IMG/VR virus record: IMGVR_UViG_3300031857_014661
Coordinates: 1 to 53,338 of that record
Direction: 5' to 3' (one strand)
Source: a virus
Length of the DNA stretch: 53,338 bases
Shown here piece by piece: positions 27,508 through 48,107 of the stretch (the first letter of the stretch is position 1; each line of letters begins with the position of its first letter). Below the pieces are notes generated by a model. The model ran no database searches and was not told where the DNA came from. It was given only the letters and a program-made list of their open reading frames with translations. A program made the position numbers and the translations under genes.

Positions 27508-28166
27508 ATGTAGAAATTTTTGGATTGTCTATCTTTAAATAAATTCATATCAAAAGACAAGTCTGAATGATTTTTATTGTGTATTACGTCATGTTTACCA
27601 TATCCCCAATCAGGGTGTTCATGTTTGATAATAACCATTGGGAAATACTTTTGTTTTCTTAGTAAGTTTCCGACTAACATAAACTCATTATCACACCAAA
27701 CTGATTTATATTCAGGATAATAAATGTAATTAAATCTTTCATAATATTTCTTACCCAAAATACACAATGTGTTTAATTCTTGACCTTTAAATCCATCATT
27801 AAAGAAAAGGATTCCATCTGTGTCAGGGTAATTTGCGTTCATCAAAGTATTAATAACTTTATCAAACCCTTTAACTTGTGGTATCATATCATCAGATGCC
27901 AATAAGATAATATCCCAATCTTCTGATGTATCAATATCACGGTTAATTGCGTGAATTTTAGAATTACTTTGACCAATTACAAAAGATACATTATCGTATG
28001 ATTCAAGTATTGCCAGTACCTCATCATTGTTCATGTCTGAGTCATCCTCATCTATGGTAATTAAAAACCTTGTGGTGGGTTCACTTATGTATTCTTGATA
28101 CCTGTTAAAGGTTTCAAAGAATTGTTTTCTACGGGACCTTGTCGGAAATTTAATTAAAAGTTTCAT
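27504..28166 (-). CDS. Probable glycosyltransferase (GT2-like)
   Basis: The 220 residues starting MKLLIKFPTRSRRKQFF include FLITIDEDDSD, IILLASDDMIPQVKG (DD metal site), GILFFNDGFKG and PMVIIKHEHPDWG. I chose the ATG at 28166; the longer frame to 28217 adds 17 residues lying within the preceding gene with no family support. It overlaps the two-domain glycosyltransferase by 17 bases. Confidence 0.65.
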   Translation of the reverse strand: MKLLIKFPTRSRRKQFFETFNRYQEYISEPTTRFLITIDEDDSDMNNDEVLAILESYDNVSFVIGQSNSKIHAINRDIDTSEDWDIILLASDDMIPQVKGFDKVINTLMNANYPDTDGILFFNDGFKGQELNTLCILGKKYYERFNYIYYPEYKSVWCDNEFMLVGNLLRKQKYFPMVIIKHEHPDWGYGKHDVIHNKNHSDLSFDMNLFKDRQSKNFYI

Positions 28167-29790
28167 TGATAATATTAAGGTAAGAGTCCACCAATTTTTC
28201 ACAAACTGTTGAACCATAAAATTTATTTATATCTTGTGGTGGAGAAACCAATTCTTTTGATAAAATGCCACCTGATTTGTCTACGTTATATATCCAAGAT
28301 TTTTTACCACACATCCAACTTTCAATTGTTGTTCTACCTAAAAGAATACCAGCAGTTTCTTTTGCCTTTCTAATAAATGTTTCGGTATTCCAAGTTGGTG
28401 TAAATCTTTTGACGTGTTTGTTTAATAAAATATCATTTAAATAATCTGATTTGTTTTCACCTACAATCCACAATTCCATTTGATTTTCATTAGTATATTC
28501 AATCAAATCTTTAATTGTTTGTTCTCTTAGATAATCTATTGTTCCAACAAACAACACGGCATTTTCTTCTGTGGTTTCTTTTTCATTAAACCTTGTATCA
28601 TCAATTGGGTTATAAATAACATCAACTAGTGATTCAGTAATTTCATCTTGCTCAACAATATGTTCCTTAATTTCAGGTCTAATTGCGATATATCTCTTAA
28701 TTGATTCATGTTTCACAGGTTTTTCTAAATCAATAACTTCTGAATGAATGGTGGCAATTTTTTCAATATTTGGGTATAATTGTAGTACCATATTAGTAAC
28801 TGGTTCATGTTGAACGTGAATAATATCGTAGTTAATATCTTGTATTTTGTACAGCATACCTTCTTTAGAAACCTCAACACCGTTTGGTGTTGACACTGAC
28901 CATTTACCATCACCCATTTTAAAACCTGGCGGTTCACTAAATGGTCTAACTTTAATACCAATCTTTTTTGCTTTATCAGTTAACGGACCACCAATTTCAG
29001 ATAAAACTGTAACATCGTGACCCATTTTAACTAATCCTTTGGCTAATTCATAAACATAAACTTCTGAACCTGTAAATGTTTTAAAATTTAAACAAGATAA
29101 AAGAATTTTTAATTTATCTTCTTTTGTTTTTTTGATTTTAATAGGTAATTGGTCTTGGTATTTGTTTGAAAATTCTTGTCTGTTTAAATCCCATTGTTCA
29201 TTTGTCATTCCAATTGATTTATGGGTTATTCTAATATTGAACATTACACCAATTTTTACATCTTTAATGTAATTTCTAAAACAAAAATCAACATCATACA
29301 AATGAAAACCTTTAACATTGGTATCAAAATTTTCTTGGATTCTACTTTTATTCACAACCATAAACAATCCATCAATCAAAACTGTCTGATGAATTTTGTT
29401 CCCTAAATCATTTGAATATTTTGATTCCCATTTTTTACCCTCGTGTTCGTGATTTACAATACCAACCATTTTGCGACGGTCTTCCCACCACATACCTGAC
29501 TTAGGTAAGTTAGTTGAACCTGCAACCCCTAAGATACCATAATCGGTCTTTTTAAAGTGTTCCAAAATCTTAAATCCCCAACTCTTGTTATCAAAATAAA
29601 TGTCATCGTGACAAAGTACCACAATGTCATTTTCAGATTCATTTAAAATATCGTTATAAACGTCAGTCAACGACTGACCATTTGGGTTAACTTTTTCAAT
29701 AACCTGTATATTTTTTACACCACAAGTTTTTTTAAAATATTCTTGTAGTTCAGGTTTTGAACTTCGGGTACTATATCCAATTGTAATCAT
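28150..29790 (-). CDS. Two-domain glycosyltransferase (GT-A + GT-B fusion)
   Basis: The 546 residues join two enzymes. Residues ~1-215 are GT-A-like: MITIGYSTRSSKPELQEYFK, VVLCHDDIYFDN (DD metal site), GILGVAGSTN, VDFCFRNYIKDV. Residues ~225-546 are GT4-like: KILLSCLNFKTFTGSEVYVYELAKGL, HVQHEP, AVLFVGTIDY, and a C-terminal AKETAGILLGRTTIESWMCG with the conserved Glu. A bifunctional enzyme could add two different sugars in sequence. It overlaps the HAD gene by one base. Confidence 0.8.
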   Translation of the reverse strand: MITIGYSTRSSKPELQEYFKKTCGVKNIQVIEKVNPNGQSLTDVYNDILNESENDIVVLCHDDIYFDNKSWGFKILEHFKKTDYGILGVAGSTNLPKSGMWWEDRRKMVGIVNHEHEGKKWESKYSNDLGNKIHQTVLIDGLFMVVNKSRIQENFDTNVKGFHLYDVDFCFRNYIKDVKIGVMFNIRITHKSIGMTNEQWDLNRQEFSNKYQDQLPIKIKKTKEDKLKILLSCLNFKTFTGSEVYVYELAKGLVKMGHDVTVLSEIGGPLTDKAKKIGIKVRPFSEPPGFKMGDGKWSVSTPNGVEVSKEGMLYKIQDINYDIIHVQHEPVTNMVLQLYPNIEKIATIHSEVIDLEKPVKHESIKRYIAIRPEIKEHIVEQDEITESLVDVIYNPIDDTRFNEKETTEENAVLFVGTIDYLREQTIKDLIEYTNENQMELWIVGENKSDYLNDILLNKHVKRFTPTWNTETFIRKAKETAGILLGRTTIESWMCGKKSWIYNVDKSGGILSKELVSPPQDINKFYGSTVCEKLVDSYLNIINETFN

Positions 29791-31463: not shown

Positions 31464-32675
31464 TTATTTTAATGATTTGTAAAGTTGTGCTCTATGGTCT
31501 GTAACAATATTTAAATCGTATTTGTCTTTTACTGTTTCGTATAATCTTTCACCTAAATCTGCCGCCCATGTTGGGTTTTGAATTAGTTTTTTCATTGCTT
31601 TAGCCCAATCTGAATGATTTCTTTTTTCCTCAACTAAGATTGCATTTCCATCAACAAAGTTACCATTTTCCAATGAATGTTTCAAATCAATTGTGTAAGG
31701 ACCAATATTTGATGCCACAATTGCTTTTTTATAAAAACCAGCTTCAATTACCTTCAATTGTGATTTAACTCTATTAAATGTGTGATTCATAATTGGTGCC
31801 AAAGACACATCAAATTTAGCGTAGTTTTTCGCGTAAGATGTCACTGGTTCAGTCCAAACACGATTATAAAATTGTTCACTACCATTCCAAGAGTCTTGTC
31901 TAAATTTCATCAAATAATCCTTGTATTCAGGTGTTGTGAATTCATAATTTTTTGTAAAAATTTCTTCATATCTCGCCCACACAGTTTCTTGTGGTAGAAT
32001 TGCTCTTTGTTTTTGTTCACCAGTTTGTGCGTTAATTTCAGTCATTGTTCCTCTTGTATCAAAACCACAAAGAAATATTTGTGACTTATCTCTAAATTCT
32101 TGACCAATAGCATCTGTAAAACCTTTCATTAATCCCAAATCATGCAAGTGTGAAGAACCACCTAACCAACCAAATCGTAATTTTTCTGATGGTTTTGTTG
32201 GTTCCATAAATTGTTGTTCATTTGGATTAATAGCGTTTGGTAAAACAAATACATTTTTGTTATACTTTTTAATTTCATCTGCAAAAATAGATGTAGTTGT
32301 CGTCACATATTTTGCGACCTTGATGTTCGCTAAAATTTTTTCATGAATTTTGTGTTGTACAACTAAATGATATGCTGGATGTTCTTTTGTGGGTAGCCAA
32401 TAGTCATCTAAATCCATCACGGTAATAATACCTAAGCTATTTAAAACTTGGATTAGTGTATTGGATTTATCATAATCAGGATTCAAACTCCTGTGAAAAC
32501 AAACCATATCGTATTTTGTCCAATAGGATATATCATCCATTTTTGGTTCAAAATCAATATCTACGTGAAAATCTTCAGGGTATTTATTCTGTAAAAAAAT
32601 GTGAGGTTCGATTGAACGAAATTTACCAACTCCCGTTCTGTCTGATGGTAAAACTAGTATTTTAATCTTTGACAT
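31464..32675 (-). CDS. Glycosyltransferase family 4-like (GT-B)
   Basis: The 403 residues show IKILVLPSDRTGVGKFRSIEP at the N-terminus, YDMVCFHRSLNPD, VMDLDDYWLP, YVTTTTSIFADEI, VLPNAINPNE, LRFGWLGGSSHLHDL (start of the donor domain) and VIEAGFYKKAIVAS with the conserved Glu. Similar GT4 proteins with the DLDDYW segment are frequent in marine T4-like phages. It is preceded by a 48-base gap with a 10-bp inverted repeat, a possible boundary inside the long run. Confidence 0.85.
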   Translation of the reverse strand: MSKIKILVLPSDRTGVGKFRSIEPHIFLQNKYPEDFHVDIDFEPKMDDISYWTKYDMVCFHRSLNPDYDKSNTLIQVLNSLGIITVMDLDDYWLPTKEHPAYHLVVQHKIHEKILANIKVAKYVTTTTSIFADEIKKYNKNVFVLPNAINPNEQQFMEPTKPSEKLRFGWLGGSSHLHDLGLMKGFTDAIGQEFRDKSQIFLCGFDTRGTMTEINAQTGEQKQRAILPQETVWARYEEIFTKNYEFTTPEYKDYLMKFRQDSWNGSEQFYNRVWTEPVTSYAKNYAKFDVSLAPIMNHTFNRVKSQLKVIEAGFYKKAIVASNIGPYTIDLKHSLENGNFVDGNAILVEEKRNHSDWAKAMKKLIQNPTWAADLGERLYETVKDKYDLNIVTDHRAQLYKSLK

Positions 32676-35263: not shown

Positions 35264-37165
35264 ATGGCAACACAGAACATAAATAACTATTATTTTAATA
35301 GATTGGACATAAGAGCGGATGATAGTTCATACACCGATTTCTTTCTTGTTGCCGATGAAAAACAATATGACCAAGAGGTTATTTATTCACCTTACTTAAT
35401 TGGATACAATGATGGTAATAGATTACCAATATCAATTGAATTATCTAACACAGGTTGTTCACAAAATTTTTCATATTCATATGGTGATTATTTTTCAGGT
35501 AATACAATTATTTCTTTAAACAATTATAATGTTAACCCATTAAACGATACTTGTTATAGTGCCTTTACAGGTGTTTGTGATGTTGGATTAACAGGAATTG
35601 ATAATGGACTTGTGACTGAAATGACAGGACAAACATTATATTATTCAATGGGTATTAGTGATGTTTTTAAGTTTGACCCATTACATTACGATAGGAGATT
35701 TAAAATGAGACCTGTTACAGGTTATACTCAAAGCCCAAATCAAAGATTTTCAGGAATTACCGCACAAACATTATATAATATTGTATCCAAAACAGCAACA
35801 ACTATTGGTCAATACTATGAATTATACGGTGGTTATTTACAAGGGTTTTATAAGTTATACGGTTATGATTATGAAGTTTTACCTGAAAGGATGCATAAAG
35901 GGTGGACGGTAGAAATGATGTTAAAACCAAGATTGGTTGATGAATATGTTCCTTCATCGGGACAAACATATCTAAATAACATTTATACTGAAAATTCAGG
36001 TACCTTCTTCTTTATGGGAGCAAGAGCTGAAAACAAATTCTATCATTACGCAGCAGGAACCGCTGATACTTTTTCAGGGTACACAAGAGTGACATCAGGA
36101 TTAACAGATTGTTTAACAACTTGTGCGTGTTCGAATACTGCATTCACTAATTCTGATTGTCATACATTATACCCATCTTCAGCAATTACTATATCACACA
36201 ATTGTACCACAACAACTGTAGTACAAGAAGACCACAATCCTGAAGATGATGTTTTTTCAAATGCATTATCACTACGATTCGAGGGTGACCCATCAAACCC
36301 ACATTTGTGTGTTAAATTTTTATTATTAACAGGTAGTTGTTCAACAACGGGAGCTTGTGAAACAACAGGATTAACTTTTGAATCGGGATATACCATTACT
36401 GAAATATGTTCAACAGATGGAATCTATGATGTATGTACAACAGGTTCAACAGGTATTGAAAAATGGTTGATGTTAGATGTTGTGTTTGAAAGAAATATAA
36501 CTTGGGATGAATGTGATTTATTGAACATGGGAGGATTGGGTGATATTAGACGAATGACTTATACGGCATCAACATATGGTAACACTGTATCATTAATTGG
36601 ACCACCAGCAACACACTCGGGAAATACCTATCCAAGCAAAGTTGAGACAATTCAACTGAACAGAAAATGGTTAGACCAAAGAGAATATAGATTAGGAAAA
36701 CTTAAATTCTTTGTTAATGGTAAATTGTTTATGACCATTGAAGATTTTGAAGAAATTATTCCAAGAGAATTGAACGAAGTTAAAGAAAAACAAATTGGGG
36801 TTCCATTTAATATATCATGGGGTGGTGGAACTTTTGGATTAAGAGAATCATTAACATTTAGTGGTTGTAGCGGGACAACAGGTCCATATATCCAAGACCC
36901 TGAAGTTATGTGTGATAATACATTAAGTGGAACAAGTTTATCAGGACTTACCACAAATATTTTATTAGAACAAAATTTTGGTGGGACATTTATGGGCGGT
37001 ATATCTGAGTTCAGAATGTATGTTGAACCATTGGGTTCTGCACAAGTACAACATAATTATAGAATATTAAAAAATAAATTTGGTTTGTTTAATTTTAACT
37101 GTCCTGATAACGCATGTATTGTTAACAGTGGGGATTTTACAGCAACATTAATACCGGCACCATAA
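35264..37165 (+). CDS. Tail-fibre/virion protein with lectin-like domain
   Basis: The 633-residue protein is Thr/Gly/Ser- and Cys-rich, as in receptor-binding proteins. It contains a LamG/concanavalin-A-like region: [18 protein letters not shown] (about 210-230), [32 protein letters not shown] (about 482-500), and [19 protein letters not shown] followed by YRILKNKFG at the end. A Cys/Thr insert ([22 protein letters not shown]) breaks this domain. It shares TAATG with the downstream 966-residue gene, so both are made together. Confidence 0.65.
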
Positions 37166-40065
37166 TGTCAAATAATTACGGATTTAGAGTTGAAAGTACT
37201 GAATATAGTGGTCAAACATGTTTGGTTACCTTTTTGGATACAACATTAAATGAAACTTTTGAGTTGGGAGTAGAAACTATCCCTTTTGATTATTTTCCTG
37301 CCGATGGTACACCACAAGGTAAAGTGTTTATATATTTTTCAGGTACCGACCAAACATTTGTAATTGATATTACAACACCAAATCCATCACCAACACCAAC
37401 TAGCACCGTAACGCCAACACCAACAAATACGGTTACACCTACCAATACCGAAACACCAACTCAGACACCAACACCAACTAACACCGAGACTCCTACCCAA
37501 ACGCCAACTCCTACCAATACCGAAACACCAACTCAGACACCAACACCAACTAACACCGAGACTCCTACCCAAACGCCAACTCCTACCAATACCAAAACTC
37601 CTACCCAAACACCAACACCAACTAACACCGAGACTCCTACCCAAACGCCAACTCCTACCAATACCGAAACTCCTACCCAAACACCAACTCCTACCAATAC
37701 CGAAACTCCTACTCAGACACCAACAGCAACTTCAACGGAGACTCCAACAGTTACGCCAACTATTACACCAACCATTACGCCGACATCGAGTAATTCCACA
37801 CCAACCCCAACACCAACTTCCACTGTAACACCAACAAATGTGTTGAGTAGTAGAATACTATATTACGATTTTAGTGATAGTAATTCATATTCAGGAACTA
37901 CAACCGTATTTGATTTAGAAAATAATAGTAATGGTACTATTGTGAATTCTCCTTCAAGTGGTAGTACAGGATGTGGAACTTTCGTAGATTTCAATGGTAC
38001 TTCACAGTATATCTATACCAACACTAATTTAAGTTCATTGTTTTCTGGTGTTTCTCCAAACAAGTCTGAAGTGACTTCAATATTTATGTGGATTTATCCT
38101 CAAGGTGATGGGGTTATACTTTCTGAAGTGGGGGTTGTAAATTCTTTATCGGGATGGCACACATCTATAATTGAAATGGTTTCGGGAACACTTAAGTTTG
38201 GTTTATGGACTACTACAGGAAATATTAATTTTACCTCATCTATATCAACACCACTTAATAATTGGTATTATGTTGGTATGACATATGATGGGTCAACTTT
38301 AACCGCATATGTTGATGGTGTAAGTGCTGGTAATATAACCTTAAATAGATTGGCCCCTTATAATGCCGGGTCAGGACTATTTTATTTACTTGCACATCAG
38401 GATGGTACAAATATGGGTGACGGAGGATTTGGTGATTACAGACTTGGTAGTTTAGAAATTTATACAACATCCTTAACAAGTGGACAAACGTATTCAAACT
38501 ATATTAACACATCCTCAAATTATATTTGTCCAACACCAACACCAACTAATACATCAACACCAACGGTTACACCAACAATTACGCCGACTAATACATCAAC
38601 ACCAACGGTTACACCAACAATTACGCCAACGCCAAATCTTGTAACAAATGGTTTGGTAATCCAACTTGACGCACATACAAGTTCAAGCTATCCCGGAACA
38701 GGTACAACAGTTTATGATATAACAGGGGGGTATAATCACACATTAATCGGTGCAACTTACACAGTTCTTAACGGTATAAAATGTTTTGATTGTACTACAG
38801 GGACTAATAGAGTTAATTACAACGCAACAGGACCTTTATTACCAAATTCAGGATACACATATATTACTTGGGCAAGATTAGAATTAAATAATATTGCATC
38901 ATTTAGAACATTACTTTATACAAACTCACCTAAATACACTCCAATTACCATCCCAAATAACTCCGATATATTGGGTTATTGGGACAGTGCGTTTAGAAGT
39001 TCAGGGTATGACTTGTCAGGTGAAACAAGTGTTTGGGTTCAATATGCGGTTGTTGGAACAAATTCATCTCAAAAATTCTACATAAATGGTTCTGAAGTTG
39101 GAAGTCAAATTGCTTTTGGTGCTGGTGGAACTACACACTGGGGTTGGGGTAATAATGATGTCGTTCCTCAGCCTTGGGGGTATGTTGCCAACATGTATTT
39201 CTACAATAGACAGTTGTCACTTTCTGAAATACAACAACAGTATAATTTCTTGTCTCCAAGATTTGTTGAACCAACACCCACCCCTACATCAACATCAACA
39301 CCTACGGTTACCCCAACAAATACAATAACACCAACTAATACTCAGACACCAACACCATCAGTAACACCTAATATTGTAACATCAAACTTACAACTACAGT
39401 TATTACCAAGTAGTTATGTTGGTTCAGGAACTGTTTGGGACACAACTGTGGGTAGTACGGATGCAACTTTATCGGGTAGTCCAACTTACAACGCATTAAG
39501 TGGTTTTACTTTCAATGGAAGTTCTTCTTATGGTAGAATCCCAAGTGTTAATGGTGTTACAAACTTTACAAATACTGAACAATACACGGTTGAAATATGG
39601 TTTAATCCTTCAAATGGTCAACCAAACTCAGGTGAAGCGGAACTATTGGAAAAATGGGATACCAGCTTCTCACCTCTTAGATACCCTTACACAATTAGAT
39701 TTAATGAAGGTGCAAGTAATATGTTCGTGGCAGCTTACGACGGGGCTAACAACCCTAATATTATTATGACGGGATTTACGGTGAATACTTGGGTACAAGC
39801 GGTTGCTGTCTTTAATTTTGGTGTTGCCAAGACTCTCACGGTTTATAGAAACGGTGTTTCCGCGGGAAGTATAAGTTTAGCTGGTGTTAATCAAGTAAGT
39901 AACACAAATTTTGTAAGTATAGCTGGTAGAGTTACTGCAGACGGAAGTTCAGCCCTAAACAAGTTCAAAGGAACTATTGGTGTCATAAGAATGTACGACA
40001 CATCATTAACATCAACACAAGTATTACAAAACTTTAATGCCGATAAATCAAAATACGGTTTATAA
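37165..40065 (+). CDS. Adhesin with three LamG-like domains and Thr-Pro linkers
   Basis: This is a large receptor-binding candidate on the tail fibre. The 966 residues comprise an N-terminal domain (1-70), a long Thr-Pro linker (71-226) of 12-residue repeats of type [12 protein letters not shown], a LamG-like domain (about 227-455), a short linker (456-491), a second lectin-like domain (492-702), a third linker (703-736) and a third domain (737-966). Each domain shows the jelly-roll pattern: FDFNG/FNGSS, YTVEIWF or [25 protein letters not shown], and [11 protein letters not shown]. Such linkers are flexible and likely O-glycosylated in bacteria. It forms one operon with the 633-residue gene (TAATG junction). 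Confidence 0.8.
37375..37842 (+). repeat. Tandem 36-bp/72-bp repeats encoding the Thr-Pro linker
   Basis: The stretch encodes repeats of a 12-residue Thr-Pro unit. Two different codon versions alternate, giving a 72-bp higher-order unit. The copies at 37450-37521 and 37522-37593 are identical as I read them, and later units drift. Confidence 0.85.
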
Positions 40066-40560: not shown

Positions 40561-43290
40561 ATGATACCAGCAGAAGAAATTGAAGATTTTTTGAAGGGCT
40601 CTGACCCTGAACAGTACATAGTCAGTGTTGAATTTGACTACGTTAGTGACTCCATCTACAAAATTATTGAAGACCCCATAAAAGGGAAGATTGTTAAACG
40701 TGATACCTTTATTCCATTTGCTTGGGTTGGTGATTTACGTGGTCTCAACTTTTATCAAGGTTCAAAGGGGTTACAAAAAGAAGCAATGTCCAAATACGGA
40801 ATTGTTATTGAAAAACTAAAAACAGAAGGAAATAAAAGACTTGAAGAAGGTTTATCATTTATGGTTAAATCTTTGAAGGGTTATAGAACATTATTACAAT
40901 TTTTCCGTGATGGTGGAATTGACCCATATGGTGAAAAGGCAAAAGAAAAAGTTTTGATTCTTCCACCGATTGAACAATTTTTGATTCAAAAAGAAAAACG
41001 TCTTTTCAAAGGGTTTGAAAGTTATGATGACGTAACCCGTTTTGTATTTGACTTAGAAACTACCGCTTTGGAACCAAAAGATGGTAGAATATTCATGTTT
41101 GGATTAAAGACAAACAAAGGGTTTCACAAGGTTATTGAATGTTCAAATGAGGAACAGGAAAAACAAGGTATCATAGATTTTTTTAACTATATCCATGAAA
41201 TTAAACCATCCATTATTGTGTCATATAACGGATTTGCGTTTGACTGGCATTGGATATTTGAAAGGGCAAAAGCTTTGGGATTGGATATGAAAAGAATCTG
41301 TAAATCACTTAACCCTGAAAAATCAATTACACAATCAAAAGGTTTGTTGAAATTGGCAAACGAAATTGAGGATTACGTTCAAACATCAATTTGGGGTTAT
41401 AATGTTATTGACGCATTACACTCAGTAAGACGTGCACAAGCTATTAACTCAAATATCAAATCTGCTGGTTTGAAATATATTGTTCAATATTTGGAAGCTG
41501 AAGACGCTGACCGTATCTACATTGACCATACCGATATTGGTTCCATGTATGCCAAGAAAGAAGATTATTGGTTAAACACCCAAAATGGTAAGTACAAAAA
41601 ATGTGGTATTGACCCAAAGGTTGATGAAGTGTGTGAAAGAAGAGAAGATACCTATATTAAAACAACAGGTGATAACATTGTTGAAAGATATCTTGACGAT
41701 GACTTAATTGAGACATTAAGAGTTGATGAAGAGTTTAATCAGGGTTCATTCCTGTTGGCTTCTTTGGTTCCAACAACATATCAAAGGATTGCCACGATGG
41801 GAACAGCAACACTCTGGGAAATCCAAATGAGAGCTTGGTCGTATAAACATGGACTTGCAATTCCCGCTAAACAACAGAAACAAGACTTTGTTGGTGGATT
41901 GTCACGTTTGGTTAAAGTTGGGTATTCAACCGATGTATTGAAACTTGACTTTAGTTCACTGTATCCGTCAATTCAGTTGGTTCACGACGTATTCCCTGAT
42001 TGTGATATAACAGGAGTAATGAAAGGTATGTTAACGTACTTTAGAAATGCTCGTATTATGTATAAACAATTGGCCGAAGAGTTTGAAAAGAGTGACCCTG
42101 TAAAATCTAAATCTTATGACCGTAAACAATTACCAATTAAGATTTTTATTAACTCAATGTTTGGAGCTTTATCAGCACCTCAAGTATTTCACTGGGGTGA
42201 TATGAATCAGGGTGAAAGGATTACTTGTACAGGTAGACAATATCTACGTCAGATGATTAAGTTCTTTATGAATCGTGGATATGACCCGTTGGTTATGGAT
42301 ACGGATGGTGTGAACTTTTCATCACCTGTGAATGTTGAATCCCGTAAATACATTGGTAAAGGTTTGAATTGGAAAGTGGTTGAAGGTAAGGAATATATGG
42401 GTGCCGCAGCTGACATTGCAGAATATAATGACTTGTTCATGAAAGGTGAAATGGCTTTGGATAATGATGGTGTTTGGCCATCTTGTATTAACTTAGCACG
42501 TAAGAACTATGCCTTGATGACTGACAAAGGTAAAATTAAATTGGTTGGTAATACAATCAAATCAAAGAAATTACCGTTGTATATTGAAGCGTTTTTGGAC
42601 AAAGGAATCAAAATGTTATTGATGGGTGAAGGTCAACAATTTGTTGAGTGGTATTATGAATACTTAGAAAAAATCTTTAACAAACAAATTCCATTAAAAC
42701 AAATTGCGTCTCGTGCTAAAGTTAAAATTTCTATTGAGGATTACAAAGTAAGATGTGGTCAAAAAACCAAATCAGGAAGTATGATGTCAAGACAAGCACA
42801 TATGGAACTTATTATTCATGATGGTATTGCGGCTAACTTGGGTGATGTAATTTTTTATGTTAACAACGGTACAAAAGCATCACATGGTGATGTTGTTAAA
42901 AAAGTTGACTCATTGGTAATCAATGCCTATAGATTGGACAATGAGGAACTTGAAAGAAATCCTGATATGTTGGGTGAGTATAATATAGCGAGAGCAATAA
43001 CAACATTTAACAAACGTATTGAACCTTTGATGGTTGTGTTTAAAGATGATGTTAGAGATTCTTTGATTATTGATAACCCAAGTAAGAGGGAATTCTATAC
43101 AAAAGAACAATGTCAATTAATCAATGGTCACCCTTTCGAGGATACCGACCAAGATAAATTGGTAGATGTTTTAACGGTTTCTGAACAAGAAGTGAAGTTT
43201 TGGGATAGGGTTGGTATTAGTCCTGACTATATCTATGATTTAGCTGAAGATGGATGGGAACAAGAATTAGTCCAATTTGAGACCGTCTGA
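40561..43290 (+). CDS. 43: Family B DNA polymerase (gp43-like)
   Basis: Replicative polymerase with proofreading. The exonuclease domain shows exo I FVFDLETTALEP (D164, E166) and exo II SYNGFAFDWHW (D228). Polymerase motif A is KLDFSSLYPS (D463), motif B KIFINSMFGAL, and motif C VMDTDGV (D580, D582). Length 909 compared with 898 for T4 gp43. The gene stands alone between the virion gene at 40475 and a convergent gene whose 3' end overlaps it by 24 bases. The leader holds a possible hairpin. Confidence 0.97.
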   Translation: MIPAEEIEDFLKGSDPEQYIVSVEFDYVSDSIYKIIEDPIKGKIVKRDTFIPFAWVGDLRGLNFYQGSKGLQKEAMSKYGIVIEKLKTEGNKRLEEGLSFMVKSLKGYRTLLQFFRDGGIDPYGEKAKEKVLILPPIEQFLIQKEKRLFKGFESYDDVTRFVFDLETTALEPKDGRIFMFGLKTNKGFHKVIECSNEEQEKQGIIDFFNYIHEIKPSIIVSYNGFAFDWHWIFERAKALGLDMKRICKSLNPEKSITQSKGLLKLANEIEDYVQTSIWGYNVIDALHSVRRAQAINSNIKSAGLKYIVQYLEAEDADRIYIDHTDIGSMYAKKEDYWLNTQNGKYKKCGIDPKVDEVCERREDTYIKTTGDNIVERYLDDDLIETLRVDEEFNQGSFLLASLVPTTYQRIATMGTATLWEIQMRAWSYKHGLAIPAKQQKQDFVGGLSRLVKVGYSTDVLKLDFSSLYPSIQLVHDVFPDCDITGVMKGMLTYFRNARIMYKQLAEEFEKSDPVKSKSYDRKQLPIKIFINSMFGALSAPQVFHWGDMNQGERITCTGRQYLRQMIKFFMNRGYDPLVMDTDGVNFSSPVNVESRKYIGKGLNWKVVEGKEYMGAAADIAEYNDLFMKGEMALDNDGVWPSCINLARKNYALMTDKGKIKLVGNTIKSKKLPLYIEAFLDKGIKMLLMGEGQQFVEWYYEYLEKIFNKQIPLKQIASRAKVKISIEDYKVRCGQKTKSGSMMSRQAHMELIIHDGIAANLGDVIFYVNNGTKASHGDVVKKVDSLVINAYRLDNEELERNPDMLGEYNIARAITTFNKRIEPLMVVFKDDVRDSLIIDNPSKREFYTKEQCQLINGHPFEDTDQDKLVDVLTVSEQEVKFWDRVGISPDYIYDLAEDGWEQELVQFETV

Positions 43291-43602
43291 AGATAAGATG
43301 TACCAGTTTCCACCTATAAAGTGAAACTCAACACATGCACCTTTTCCAATTTCAACTTCATCATATTGTTCGTCAATTTTGCTCTTATCGGGTCTAATTG
43401 TAACTTTGGTAAGAGCTTTGACAACAATGTGGTCAGTTGTTTTACTATCTAATAACAAATCACAATGTTCAACAGTTTTAATCACAATTGCGTATTCACC
43501 TGTTGTTGTGTAATTTGATTCGGAAATTAAAGCGACCTCAGATGTTTTTACTTCAATTCCGTTAATAATTTTTTTACTCGGTATACTCCTTAATATTGGC
43601 AT
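43267..43602 (-). CDS. Hypothetical small beta-rich protein
   Basis: The 111 residues look like one beta domain: EYAIVIKTVEHCDLLLDS, HIVVKALTKVTIRPD, then GKGACVEFHFIGGNWYILSSDGLK. The ending resembles 'F-x-GG-NWYI-SSDG' patterns in virion proteins of many phages, so a neck or fibre role is possible. Its last eight codons lie antisense to the 3' end of the polymerase gene. It lies four bases from the neck gene start region and is probably co-transcribed with it. Confidence 0.6.
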   Translation of the reverse strand: MPILRSIPSKKIINGIEVKTSEVALISESNYTTTGEYAIVIKTVEHCDLLLDSKTTDHIVVKALTKVTIRPDKSKIDEQYDEVEIGKGACVEFHFIGGNWYILSSDGLKLD

Positions 43603-43606
43603 AAAA

Positions 43607-44722
43607 TTAAATTACATTATAGGGACTTGGGAACGCTCTATATTTTAATTGTTTATTTAGGTTTTCAGCAATTAAGGCTTCCTTTTCCATTTGTTTAACA
43701 GGACTTAATCTTTCAAGACGTAATTTTAATTCTTCTTCAAGTTTTGCTCTTTCATCTTTAGCCTCACCTAACAAAGATGTGTAGTCCAATGTTAGTTCAG
43801 AGTCAGGGGTTTTAAGGTTACCACTGTATTTACCATAAATACGACCTAATGTTTCTTTACAGTAAGCGGTAAACCATCTTCTAACCCATTGTTGTGCGGG
43901 TGTATTAAGGTCCTGCCAATTTAACGCTTCTAATGGTATGTCAGATGGTAATCTAACAATGTCAGGATTTGCAGCCAAACAATCATCACGGTCACCATCA
44001 GTATCGTAGTACCAATACCAACATCTATATTCGTTAAATCCAATATTTGAAAAATCAAATCTTCCACCAGGTGTGTTGTATAAGTGTAATGCTTTTTTTC
44101 CTTCAGGCAATGCTGTAATTCTATATGTCAAATCACCAACAATCATTCTTTGTTTGAGATTTCTATCCGCCATTCTTAACACAACGTCAAACGCTGGCAT
44201 CATAAAATAACTTCCACTTGCACCAAATTGTGCAAATCCGCCAGGACCACCTAATCCAGTTCCACCAAATCCTCCAAATCCACCCATAAATGGGTCGAAT
44301 AATGAATTGTTTAATTCGGCTCTCATGAACCATAAAAGTTCATTAATTTCACGACCCTTAGGTATTTCATAAATTTGTTGGTTCGGAACCAAATCAACAT
44401 AATCTTTTTTAAGTACCCAATCACCACCAGCTTGTAATCCAACTATCTTTGAATATGCGTAAGTGTATTGTGTTTCCCAATCTAAACTTCTTTTGGTAAG
44501 TGCCCTTGTTAAAGACTGTTCGTCAAGGTTCAGTCCATATAAAGAAGTCCATTGTGCTTCAATTAACCAATCTAAAATATATTGTTCGTAATCCCCAATC
44601 GCAAGTTCTAATAATGAGTCCATTTGCTCATCTTCTAACTCAACACCTCTAACAGGTGCACCAAGAAGGGCTTTAATTCTTCTATAGAGTTTACTTCTTT
44701 CTGGTTCTACAATAATTGCCAT
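43607..44722 (-). CDS. Neck/head-completion protein (gp13-like, probable)
   Basis: The 371 residues begin with a helical part LYRRIKALLGAPVRGVELEDEQMDSLLELAIGDYEQY in two pieces. This is the pattern of connector proteins that join portal and tail (compare VEITDEQLD-x-AID in gp13-like proteins). A Gly/Phe-rich insert (about 150-175) interrupts the middle, and VRRWFTAYCKETLGRIYGKYS precedes a coiled-coil end. I chose the ATG at 44722. The frame extends to a TTG at 44740, but that lies inside the TATTTATA motif. Assignment to gp13 rather than gp14 is uncertain. Confidence 0.6.
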   Translation of the reverse strand: MAIIVEPERSKLYRRIKALLGAPVRGVELEDEQMDSLLELAIGDYEQYILDWLIEAQWTSLYGLNLDEQSLTRALTKRSLDWETQYTYAYSKIVGLQAGGDWVLKKDYVDLVPNQQIYEIPKGREINELLWFMRAELNNSLFDPFMGGFGGFGGTGLGGPGGFAQFGASGSYFMMPAFDVVLRMADRNLKQRMIVGDLTYRITALPEGKKALHLYNTPGGRFDFSNIGFNEYRCWYWYYDTDGDRDDCLAANPDIVRLPSDIPLEALNWQDLNTPAQQWVRRWFTAYCKETLGRIYGKYSGNLKTPDSELTLDYTSLLGEAKDERAKLEEELKLRLERLSPVKQMEKEALIAENLNKQLKYRAFPSPYNVI

Positions 44723-44728
44723 CTTCTT

Positions 44729-44736
44729 TATAAATA
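44729..44736 (-). promoter_or_regulatory. TATTTATA motif before the neck gene
   Basis: On the minus strand TATTTATA, AAGAAG, ATG at 44722. The motif lies right beyond the SOD-fusion stop codon at 44737 and separates the two genes. Confidence 0.5.
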
Positions 44737-46299
44737 TCAAATATCTCCAAATATGTTTGATTTTGGAAATACATAATTACCATCAATAATTTTTGTATTT
44801 TGATTTTTGAATACGACTGTCTTGTTTTTATTATTAAAAACTAAATAATCAGTTTTATATTGTTTTGGTGCGCTCGCTCCGAACACCATAACACTATCAT
44901 CATTAAAATCTTTTACACCACTAAATGGTTTAATTTGTGCTGTCAATCTTTGACCATCTTTATTAATAATCGCATCAACACCCGAAATCATATCTTCTTC
45001 AGAACCCAATCCACCAATTTTGTGAACGTCTTCAGTTCCAAATATTTTTCTTAATGCTATAACAGTAATATCTTCTCTTTCCTCACCTTTGGAATCGGTT
45101 TGTACTAATTTCTGTACAATATTTTGAAAAGTTTTAGATGTTGACAAGTTAAAGATTCGGTCTCTTAAATCATAAAGATATTTTGTAAATCTTTCAACTT
45201 CTTTAATTTGTGCAAATTTATCTTTATCCCCAAATGATATAGGTTTTATATTGTTTTTAATTAAATAAAAATTTAAATCATTCATCAAAATACAAAACGA
45301 ACTGTAATTTGTATTTAATTTGTTAATAACTGAACGACCTGGTTTTCCGTAATTATAAATTCCTGACATTGAACCTGGTTCATATTGGTCTTTTTCAAAC
45401 CAATATTCTGAAAATTTTTCTTTCATGATTGTGTTGATTGTATTCATGAATTTATATTTTACTTGTGTGTTCATTGAAAACATTTTGTTTATTTCTTTAA
45501 CCTCTGTTGTTGAACAACCTATACTTTCTCTTGTTTCAACAAGTAATTCACCAGCTAACTTTTCTTCGTTAAGTTTTTTTTCGTTTTTAGATATAAGAAG
45601 TGTGTTAACAAAGTCCCAATTAATAACTGAGAAAAATTTTCCTATATATTCATCTTTTTTGTTTTGGTATCTTAAATAATATGCGTGTTCCCACAAATCA
45701 AGACCCAATATTGGATATCCACCATCTTTGACGGTATTCATTAATGGGTTATCTTGGTTTGATGTCGTAACAATTTTTAATTTACCTTGACCATTAATTA
45801 CCAACCAACACCATCCTGAACCAAAATTCTTTTGTGATTTTTCCGTGAATTGTTTTTTGAATTCTTCGTAAGAACCAAAGTCTTTTTTAATTTTTTCTTC
45901 TACAGGACCGTTAATGGTTTGTTTCTTTGGCGATAACATTTTCCAAAACAAAGCGTGGTTAAAGGCACCACCCGCATTGTTTTTAACAGTTTTGTTATAT
46001 CTTGAAATACCTTTTACAATTTCTTCAAGTTCAGCATCGGCACCTTTAAGATTTGCAAGTGCCGCATTTAATTTTTCAACATACCCTTTATAATGTTTGT
46101 TGTAATGAACATTCATTGTTTTTGGGTCAATAAATCTACCAAGTGATGAATATGAATATGGTAATCTTTCAATCCCAATTTTTTTCATTTCATTAATAAT
46201 CTCTTTTTGTTCGTTTTGTATTGATTCTTGTAGGTCTTCGTTGGTAGTTAATTTGTCTTCTAATTCTTCAATTTCGGCTTTTAATTTTTTAAATTTCAT
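44737..46299 (-). CDS. Superoxide dismutase fused to a nuclease-like domain
   Basis: The 520 residues have three parts. Residues 1-42 are a coiled coil. Residues ~45-235 are a complete Fe/Mn superoxide dismutase. It has LPYSYSSLGRFIDPKTM, metal ligands H65 (NVHYNKHY), H115 (AFNHALFW), D201 and H205 (LDLWEHAYYL), plus GSGWCWLV. Q182 in NQDNPL is the Mn-type second-shell Gln. Residues ~245-520 are not SOD. They end with a PD-(D/E)XK-like arrangement: E406-E409 region helix, D442 (SGVDAII), Q455-I-K457 (TAQIKPF), then TDYLVFNNKNKTVVF. The catalytic triad is tentative (Q in place of E). A TATTTATA motif precedes the ATG. The location next to neck genes suggests a late product, perhaps packaged. 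Confidence 0.85.
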   Translation of the reverse strand: MKFKKLKAEIEELEDKLTTNEDLQESIQNEQKEIINEMKKIGIERLPYSYSSLGRFIDPKTMNVHYNKHYKGYVEKLNAALANLKGADAELEEIVKGISRYNKTVKNNAGGAFNHALFWKMLSPKKQTINGPVEEKIKKDFGSYEEFKKQFTEKSQKNFGSGWCWLVINGQGKLKIVTTSNQDNPLMNTVKDGGYPILGLDLWEHAYYLRYQNKKDEYIGKFFSVINWDFVNTLLISKNEKKLNEEKLAGELLVETRESIGCSTTEVKEINKMFSMNTQVKYKFMNTINTIMKEKFSEYWFEKDQYEPGSMSGIYNYGKPGRSVINKLNTNYSSFCILMNDLNFYLIKNNIKPISFGDKDKFAQIKEVERFTKYLYDLRDRIFNLSTSKTFQNIVQKLVQTDSKGEEREDITVIALRKIFGTEDVHKIGGLGSEEDMISGVDAIINKDGQRLTAQIKPFSGVKDFNDDSVMVFGASAPKQYKTDYLVFNNKNKTVVFKNQNTKIIDGNYVFPKSNIFGDI

Positions 46300-46314: not shown

Positions 46315-46322
46315 TATAAATA
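46315..46322 (-). promoter_or_regulatory. TATTTATA motif before the SOD-fusion gene
   Basis: On the minus strand TATTTATTTATAAG gives two overlapping copies. The nearer one ends 15 bases before the ATG at 46299. Confidence 0.5.
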
Positions 46323-46340
46323 AATAGATTTTCAAAAAAC

Positions 46341-48107
46341 TTACCTCTTACCAAAAATTTGATTCATAATTTCTTGTACAATCTCTGCCCTGCCCACGTT
46401 ATCACCCATTACGGTTTCAAAAATATTTTTCTTTTTATTGAGAATATCATAAATTGTACCCTCAATAGTATTTTCAAATATTGGATAATATACCGATACG
46501 TTTGATTTTTGTCCGTATCTATAACTTCGGTCTTCAGCTTGTGCGTGGTCGGATGGAACAAATGATAAATCATTCATAATAACCGCCTCAGCGGCAGTAA
46601 GTGTAATACCAACACCCGCCGCTTTTAAGTTACCAACAAACACTTTTATTTTTTCATTGTTTTGAAATTCGTCAACAGCGTTTTGTCTTTTTGCTGGTGA
46701 ACATGAACCATCCAAGTAAACGGCTTGTTTACCGAAATGGTCATAAATTTTATTTAGGGAATCGGTAAAGTTTGTGAAAACTATTACTTTTTTATCTTGT
46801 TCTAATATGTTCTCAACCAATTCAATGGTTGACCGTATTTTTTCTTGTGCAATTACCTGACGTACCTTTGTTAACTTGGTAAATTGAACGGTTAATGATG
46901 AACTCTCATCGGTATTTTTTTCATACCAATCAAAATACTCACCCATTAATTCTTCATATTCTTTTGATTTTAATCTCAAATAAACGGGGGTGATAATTTT
47001 ATCAGGTAAATCTAATACATCTGTTTTTAATCTTCTTAATACTTGTCTTGTTGTTCGGTCTCTTAACTCTTCTAAATTTGAAGCTCCCATAACATTCCAA
47101 ACTTTTCTATTACCAACTTTGAATTGGTACCCATTACAATATCTAACAACATATGCCATCCAATTTGCTGCAACGGGTGATTCAATAAGTTCTAACAAAT
47201 TAAAATAATTCATTGGTCGTGATGTCATTGGTGTACCCGTTAACAACCACAATCTGTCAACCCCCTTCACAAAGTCGTTGATTAATTTTGTTCTTTGTGC
47301 GGTTTTATTTTGAATATAATGTGCTTCATCAATAATAACCAAATCAAAATTACTTTTTAAAACACGAGAGTTGTCCCTATCTTTTGGGTCGTGAAAGTTT
47401 TTTAGAATGTCGTAATTAACAATTACAAAATCAGCATCCTCATATCTTTTACTTCCGCAGATATATGTTGAGCGTTTTGTGTAATTTTCAATTTCTCTTT
47501 GCCAGTTAATCTTTAATGACGCAGGACAAATAATTAAAACTCTTTTGGCTTCAGTTTCCAACGCCGCCACAATGGTTGATGTTGTCTTACCCAATCCCAT
47601 ATCATCAGCCAAAATAAACCTTTTTGTTTTTACAAGTTTTTCTACCGCCTCAACTTGGTGTGAAAGAAGTGGTCTATGTGAATACTTTGAATAATCAATT
47701 TCTTTATAGTATTGTTCAGGGTTTTTAATGATTGCCGCCTTTGGTAACCAAAAATCTGTTAAAGGTTCACTATCAAAAAAACGACCCCAAATATGATAAG
47801 ACTTATCTTTTTCAACTAATAACTTTTCAATCCACACTTGTTTTGGTGGAACTGTATATAATTTTTCGTTTGATATTTTTTCAGAAAAATAATCATCCAA
47901 TTCAACCCATTTTTTTGCAACTTTTGGTGTTGTGTTTGAGTGGTTTAAAATGTATTCACATTGACTTCTTGTTGGAATACCACGTTTGTTTGGGTTGAAA
48001 ATACCTTTTAATTTTAGGATATAGTTATTTGCACCCTGATAATCATGTAGGGTATTAAGGGCTTTTTGTTCTAATAATCCTGAGTTTTCAATTATGGGGT
48101 TTTCCAA
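46341..48107 (-). CDS. SNF2-family helicase/ATPase
   Basis: The 588 residues hold a two-lobe SNF2 motor. Walker A is ADDMGLGKTTS (about 168-178), followed by VLIICPASLKINWQRE (Ia), VIIDEAHYIQN (DEAH, motif II), LWLLTGTPMTSRP (III), VIVFTNFTDSLNKIYDHF (IV), VGNLKAAGVGITLTAAEAVI (V) and AEDRSYRYGQK (VI). The closest cellular types are SMARCAL1-like annealing helicases. T4 UvsW, a branch-migration helicase, is an analogue. About 140 N-terminal residues precede the motor. The start appears to be a TTG at 48107, because no ATG lies between the upstream stop and the conserved domain. Confidence 0.9.
   Translation of the reverse strand: MENPIIENSGLLEQKALNTLHDYQGANNYILKLKGIFNPNKRGIPTRSQCEYILNHSNTTPKVAKKWVELDDYFSEKISNEKLYTVPPKQVWIEKLLVEKDKSYHIWGRFFDSEPLTDFWLPKAAIIKNPEQYYKEIDYSKYSHRPLLSHQVEAVEKLVKTKRFILADDMGLGKTTSTIVAALETEAKRVLIICPASLKINWQREIENYTKRSTYICGSKRYEDADFVIVNYDILKNFHDPKDRDNSRVLKSNFDLVIIDEAHYIQNKTAQRTKLINDFVKGVDRLWLLTGTPMTSRPMNYFNLLELIESPVAANWMAYVVRYCNGYQFKVGNRKVWNVMGASNLEELRDRTTRQVLRRLKTDVLDLPDKIITPVYLRLKSKEYEELMGEYFDWYEKNTDESSSLTVQFTKLTKVRQVIAQEKIRSTIELVENILEQDKKVIVFTNFTDSLNKIYDHFGKQAVYLDGSCSPAKRQNAVDEFQNNEKIKVFVGNLKAAGVGITLTAAEAVIMNDLSFVPSDHAQAEDRSYRYGQKSNVSVYYPIFENTIEGTIYDILNKKKNIFETVMGDNVGRAEIVQEIMNQIFGKR

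Follow-up and report, generated by a model that had tools for sequence, protein, structure and literature searches.

A superoxide dismutase fused to a nuclease-fold domain at a conserved locus of aquatic phages

We find that a protein of 520 amino acids, encoded in a 53,338-base IMG/VR virus record (the whole stretch of DNA analyzed, here called the window), joins a superoxide dismutase (SOD) to a C-terminal domain of PD-(D/E)XK nuclease fold. This joining is genuine and occurs widely among viral contigs. Both parts belong to known superfamilies, while the joined architecture is new as far as our searches reach and its purpose is putative. The best explanation we can offer, at a probability of about 0.4, is a late nuclease for branched DNA that works with a helicase before packaging and carries its own Mn-SOD aboard. 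A large lineage of aquatic phages thus keeps an SOD welded to a nuclease across deep divergence, with the active site intact, and the fusion links oxidative stress in infection to DNA processing. Since fused, split and SOD-less versions occur at one locus, the need of a phage for superoxide dismutase becomes directly testable. These proteins also illustrate how a second enzyme can go unnoticed in a phage protein behind a label such as “superoxide dismutase”.

Fusion gene and reading frame

The minus-strand frame is open from 46299 to 44737 and encodes the full 520 residues, while the frame read on the plus strand over 44737-46299 has stops throughout. Coordinates of the gene, its domains and its neighbors are given in Table 1. 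An earlier note, made from the letters of this DNA, had listed residues H65, H115, D201, H205, Q182, D442, Q455 and K457, and all of these numbers are exact; the key SOD and nuclease residues that it named are invariant across 30 representatives. The coiled coil it had placed before the SOD is predicted as a helix over residues 2-38, with modest confidence (pLDDT about 48-66) in the AF2 model of the full protein. The pTM of this model is 0.46, so the relative placement of the domains is undefined.

Table 1. Features of the fusion locus in the window
Feature	Position	Strand	Remarks
SOD-nuclease fusion gene	44737..46299 (stop included)	-	520 aa
N-terminal coiled-coil-like helix, residues 1-38	46186..46299	-	AF2 helix 2-38
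Predicted Mn-type Fe/Mn superoxide dismutase, residues 43-236	45592..46173	-	H65, H115, D201, H205; Q182; G199-L200
Linker and helical subdomain, residues 237-400	45100..45591	-	conserved GRSVINKLNTNYS motif
PD-(D/E)XK nuclease-fold domain (modeled), residues 401-520	44740..45099	-	E409, D442, Q455, K457
Late-type promoter motif TTATTTAT	46316..46323	-	
SNF2-family DNA helicase, upstream neighbor	46341..48107	-	588 aa
Neck / head-tail adaptor, downstream neighbor	43607..44740	-	PHROG 211
Conserved protein, same block	43267..43602	-	111 aa
B-family DNA polymerase, convergent	40561..43290	+	

A sequencing or assembly error had been named in advance as a way in which the fusion could prove spurious, and we now regard such an artefact as extremely improbable. 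In a few copies (L009, L013/L084, L023/L094 and L026) the SOD or nuclease parts are disrupted by frameshifts or deletions, which may reflect assembly errors or gene decay. Numerous contigs that come from different samples and range over 44-100% identity nevertheless have the frame intact, and on this recurrence we reject the artefact.

Superoxide dismutase half

Few enzymes have been studied as much as the Fe/Mn SODs, which normally stand alone as a single domain. The first half of the phage protein matches both of their Pfam domains, Sod_Fe_C (E 1.7e-39, residues 131-232) and Sod_Fe_N (E 6.9e-21, residues 44-123), with scores of 134.4 and 74.9 bits against cut-offs of 20.9 and 27. The best PDB sequence match of the whole fusion protein is SodA of S. 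aureus (5n56, E 1.3e-58), and the fold of the SOD half matches the MnSOD of Sphingobacterium (6gsc) with a Z of 27.3 and an rmsd of 1.8 over 204 residues. Conservation was assessed in 249 sequences, consisting of 248 loci with ORFs longer than 450 aa and the window, near-copies included. Thirteen of the 16 active-site positions tested are invariant in all 249: the four metal ligands H65, H115, D201 and H205 together with H69, Y73, W119, W163, W165, Q182, W203, E204 and Y208. The other three vary in 1 (N181), 9 (G199) and 5 (L200) sequences, and position 199, two residues ahead of the Asp ligand and hence known as XD-2, has Gly in 240 sequences, Cys in 8 and Ala in 1. The earlier description of a full Fe/Mn SOD with four ligands and a Mn-type Gln therefore stands.

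In the accessible portions of PMC10172142 and PMC13008324, a C-terminal Gln combined with Gly or Ala at XD-2 mostly belongs to Mn-preferring SodFMs. Q182 and G199 match this pattern, which makes manganese the likely metal, and to judge from these residues the SOD is likely an intact enzyme of SodFM1 type, predicted to prefer Mn. It resembles bacterial MnSODs (SodFM1; 5n56, 6gsc) in its fold, all ligands, the C-terminal Gln and the G-L before the Asp ligand. In contrast to the phage gene, the C-terminal domain was not found in the best 80 bacterial loci, and the bacterial SOD ORFs shown are 200-310 aa long, with one broken at 30 aa. Most of these top 80 bacterial matches, at 42-51% identity, come from Bacteroidota. 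This suggests that the hosts of these phages are probably Bacteroidota.

C-terminal nuclease half

Residues 236-520 form a C-terminal part of 285 aa, for which an AlphaFold model built from 77 sequences reached a pLDDT of 87.6 and a pTM of 0.81. The earlier note had proposed a restriction-endonuclease fold here, and structure prediction with fold comparison found one. The best PDB match of the last 120 residues is the Holliday junction enzyme Hjc of A. fulgidus (2wcw; Z 8.2, rmsd 3.5, 100/121 aa), followed by NhoI (Z 7.4), I-Ssp6803I (7.0), DpnI (6.6), RecU (5.1) and PvuII (5.0), where, as the tool itself warns, best Z scores of 7-8 are common for models without a clear match. A nuclease or resolvase is named in 32 of the first 35 of 50 fold-match rows; the remaining three (9qcc, 1y1o and 1rzn) we take to be such enzymes as well, and nearly all of the rows are presumably PD-(D/E)XK enzymes. 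Foldseek without realignment gave the weaker matches I-Ssp6803I (E 0.010) and Hjc (E 0.013), and by itself returned no PDB match to the C-terminal domain at E 0.001 or better.

In the model, a long helix holds E409, the start of one strand D442, and the next strand both Q455 and K457, which is the classic arrangement. These four residues are invariant in 95 of 95 sequences, fused and solo (93 representatives, the window and one remote homolog), bearing out the D442 and Q455-x-K457 layout read from the sequence alone. As modeled, the C-terminal part has a PD-(D/E)XK fold with a complete E-D-QxK set, at moderate fold scores. Its sequence gave only chance-level names in Pfam, PHROGs and the PDB, and Hjc appeared neither among the Pfam matches of 15 members (E up to 1) nor among the PDB chains (E up to 10). 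No clear fold match was obtained for the helical subdomain (residues 263-400), but the nuclease part had filled the match list, and a new fold cannot be deduced from this.

The phage domain shares with archaeal Hjc, its best PDB match, the PD-(D/E)XK core fold and the E-D-xxK layout, yet differs in the long helical part before the core, in the fused SOD and in having no sequence match to it. Similarly, NhoI, DpnI, PvuII and I-Ssp6803I share the fold at Z 5-7.4, while the phage gene, unlike these restriction and homing enzymes, is fixed among replication and neck genes with no methylase among the neighbors scanned.

Distribution of the fusion

Searching viral contigs with the fusion protein gave 174 relatives among 206 pattern matches, and three overlapping scans with profiles of the C-terminal domain gave at least 478, 396 and 499 relatives. 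Loci were taken as the best 80 of the 174 and the best 80 from each scan of the C-terminal domain. After removal of loci that were damaged or at a contig end (L009, L013, L023, L026, L071, L082, L084, L094, L220 and L271), 303 usable loci yielded 93 representatives at 90% identity: 74 fused, 18 with the nuclease alone, here called solo, and 1 split. The same fusion, which the earlier note had suggested looking for in other phages, thus recurs in 74 of 93 representatives, with divergence down to 44% identity. In the split locus, L176, SOD and nuclease are two adjacent separate genes.

A profile of the C-terminal domain had 54 pattern matches and no relatives in the genome contigs of 84,980 species. 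Three queries of this domain were run against 50,697 phage records; one found nothing, one found two chance-like matches at E 7, and the third matched a 735-kb huge phage (two records of equal length, E 0.01) in addition to one match at E 7. The huge phage, LR756501.1, encodes a stand-alone remote homolog of the nuclease half with 290 aa (L399:5980-6852), which aligned with the profile over 247 columns at 98.8% probability and partly shares the helical subdomain. Genes that look PhoH-like and SET-domain-like, as labeled by eye, are found near it. The fusion protein itself matched phage records only through SOD parts, in 28 records, none covering 80%; several of these are short and unannotated and may, as a guess, be bacterial DNA. 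Single-domain SODs do occur in other phages such as Vibrio phage 2.275.O.

Among predicted viral structures, UniProt A0A6J5L953 (501 aa, BFVD) matches the fold of the C-terminal domain with E 3e-24 over 285 columns. Judged by its length and name, “superoxide dismutase [uncultured Caudovirales phage]”, it is the same fusion, although this name mentions superoxide dismutase only. The domain fold is also found in BFVD entry A0A8D9CCA0, a protein of 1113 aa from an uncultured marine phage (TMq 0.75, 24% identity), which may point to a further fusion partner.

The literature searched by full-text words, titles and the beginnings of abstracts nowhere describes an SOD-nuclease fusion. The available part of PMC6802176 lists superoxide dismutases among the oxidative-stress genes of freshwater phages and proposes a phage-mediated defense against reactive oxygen species (ROS); no nuclease fusion is described in that part. 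PMC9875498 is, in its available part, about CPR bacteria.

Gene neighborhood and promoter motif

The earlier note had placed the gene in a neck-gene cluster. This holds for the downstream side, where the adjoining gene matches PHROG 211, head-tail adaptor Ad2, with E 1.6e-11, but not for the upstream side, where the neighbor is an SNF2-type helicase; past the neck gene and the 111-aa gene comes the B-family DNA polymerase. Having a helicase as the upstream partner points to DNA processing and not to neck structure. The order of helicase, nuclease-bearing gene and neck gene was present in all 26 loci inspected, chosen from 155, six of which are SOD-less. Phage records contained nothing that matched the neck protein at E 1e-5. 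No partner methylase was apparent among the five proteins scanned, namely the fusion protein and four neighbors; a PHROG named DNA methyltransferase is a secondary match of the helicase, probably owing to the helicase part. Inserts that look intein-like by eye occur in the neighboring helicase of L176 (L176:1321-4167, at the DEAH box) and in the helicase of L161 (L161:2046-4934, after the Walker A lysine). Bacteroides phage BS-TP3 (L411, 474-2527) has a helicase found in the same search followed by a gene annotated as a VRR-NUC nuclease, a parallel helicase-nuclease pairing.

As a word, TTATTTAT shows no enrichment in the window, where it has 12 matches against 14.7 expected. TATTTAT, which is one base shorter, precedes 13 of the 55 ORFs in a mechanical list for the window by at most 60 bp, against 0.98 expected, and the terminase and tail sheath genes are among them. 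In the interval from 90 bp ahead of the start to 45 bp past it, TATTTAT is present in 72 of the 74 fused representatives against a background of 5%, and in 11 of the 18 solo nuclease genes. Its placement supports the claim that the fusion gene has its own late-type motif. A different word, TAnnTTTGY, precedes seven solo genes and the split gene and none of the 74 fused genes; it is not clearly enriched in the window (54 against 44.8 expected, with 7 of 100 shuffles as high). It resembles the Bacteroidota host promoter. Since this word stands before solo and never before fused genes, the solo nuclease may partly be under another promoter class.

Loss or gain of the SOD

Several observations make loss of the SOD in the solo clade likelier than gain, each with caveats: the rooted tree of the C-terminal domain, the coils of solo proteins and the helicase tree. 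In the tree of the C-terminal domain the 18 solo genes and the split gene are set apart together by a branch with support 100, with fused genes next to them, and the fused form is spread over the whole tree. Rooted on the huge-phage homolog, through a very long root branch, the solo set lies inside the fused set. A coil stands at the N terminus in 10 of the 18 solo proteins. The coil of solo L169 matched that of fused L213 with a score of 63, as high as none of 500 shuffles; pairs that did not stand out were L216, L138, L146, L129 and L058 against L119 (41 to 158 of 500 shuffles as high), and the coil of the window itself is unlike the solo coil (379 and 194 of 500 as high). In the helicase tree, which has very long outgroups and leaves out L176, five of six solo rows stand beside fused L230, while the sixth, L161, is in another fused lineage.

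On the neck tree the solo label requires three changes. Together with the helicase of L161 lying elsewhere, this indicates that the neighbors do not have one shared history and that parts of the locus were exchanged by recombination. The separate SOD gene of L176 is 86% like that of the L285 group, while its nuclease is nearest to that of L161, and such different affinities fit recombination at the locus. The stretch before the nuclease gene is the same in L161 as in L176, with no SOD gene between this stretch and the helicase in L161. An SOD (PF02777) elsewhere was found in none of 17 solo contigs of up to 309 kb, any of which may be incomplete; exactly one match was present in each of nine large fused contigs. 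In a tree with 79 bacterial SODs, 31 phage SODs are on one side of a branch with support 99.9.

Both enzymes are under purifying selection and the SOD is the most constrained, with dN/dS of 0.025-0.159 for the SOD and 0.055-0.307 for the nuclease domain in 21 pairs of 7 loci, synonymous sites being near saturation in many pairs. In this comparison the values for the coil of L132 are invalid, since its start was placed wrongly. The nuclease occurs without an SOD, so the fusion is optional, and phages of the solo clade that lack the SOD indicate that it is not essential to the nuclease. Overall, the nuclease appears to be the core of the protein, to which the SOD seems to have been attached as an old, selected and dispensable module.

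Proposed function

T4 endonuclease VII (gp49) clears branched DNA before packaging, and the role that we propose here, also for a phage nuclease, is like it. The two differ in family: T4 endonuclease VII belongs to PF02945, which had no match in the fusion protein at E up to 1. No match to PF02945 over the cut-off was present in 11 large contigs, which may be incomplete, while the T4 control gave 3.9e-23, so the T4 resolvase was not seen in the large contigs; weak matches below the threshold (E 0.006-0.05) occur in five solo contigs. The resolvase search covered PF02945 only. Given the fixed helicase partner, an endonuclease VII that was not seen and a nearest fold that is a resolvase, a late branched-DNA nuclease is the simplest account. 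Its core activity would be that of a dimeric, structure-specific endonuclease of Hjc/RecU-like kind, and together with the neighboring helicase it would trim or resolve branched phage DNA late in infection so that packaging becomes possible. The SOD, usually dimeric itself, could help to hold the nuclease dimer. In a dying host under oxidative stress, it could also clear superoxide close to the DNA and to the nuclease, which would depend on metal; such a module would benefit the phage without being indispensable. Against this account, QxK replaces the ExK of Hjc, and the fold does not tell the substrate, since Z scores of 5-8 are obtained for restriction, homing and resolvase enzymes alike.

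The main rival, somewhat less probable, is a tethered ROS-defense enzyme: an auxiliary-metabolic SOD that protects the infected cell from reactive oxygen and was joined to the nuclease through gene neighborhood and shared late expression. Adjacent separate genes in L176, a solo clade that kept the nuclease without the SOD, and the single-domain SODs of other phages are all in its favor, as are the SODs and the defense proposed for freshwater phages in the available part of PMC6802176. However, the fused form is dominant (74/93) and tree-wide, which is more than casual joining predicts, and the promoter motif is late-type. Late expression would also suit carriage in the virion, either at the neck or together with the DNA, of a protein that becomes active when the next infection begins, as the earlier note had suggested; this is compatible with the branched-DNA nuclease and in keeping with the adjoining neck gene in 26 of 26 loci, but late genes include non-virion enzymes and the other neighbor is a helicase, and we find it unlikely.

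It is slightly more doubtful still that the nuclease degrades the DNA of the host or of competing phages while the SOD limits damage to the phage's own DNA. Near folds do include the restriction enzymes NhoI, DpnI and PvuII, but the five proteins scanned contain no look-alike of a partner methylase, the motif is late-type and the conserved upstream partner is a helicase. Another possibility, about as doubtful, is that the enzyme is kept on the branched or packaging DNA of the phage, where the SOD reaction or the Mn site tunes the metal-dependent nuclease; if true, this would make it the first known case in which the removal of superoxide is physically coupled to programmed cleavage of DNA. PD-(D/E)XK resolvases act as dimers, and the SOD fold could serve only as a dimerization scaffold with vestigial catalysis. 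The SodFM1 enzymes studied in the accessible part of PMC10172142 are homodimers, which also favors a scaffold, but 13 of 16 active-site positions are invariant in 249 of 249 sequences and the SOD has the lowest dN/dS, making this reading improbable. The likelihoods assigned to these rivals are not mutually exclusive.

Other features of the window

The gene set of the window comprises terminase, portal, major head protein, tail sheath, neck adaptor, SNF2 helicase and B-family DNA polymerase. It is a contractile-tailed phage, and its structural and replication genes suggest that it is T4-like. At 37165-40065 the window encodes a protein of 966 aa with long repeats and three Laminin_G_3 stretches, likely a surface or receptor-binding protein. 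A long block of minus-strand ORFs at 11447-35213, of which a minority was scanned, is perhaps a sugar-modification cluster; two of its ORFs have glycosyltransferase matches, strong and of two types at 28150-29790 and just below the cut-off at 31464-32675.
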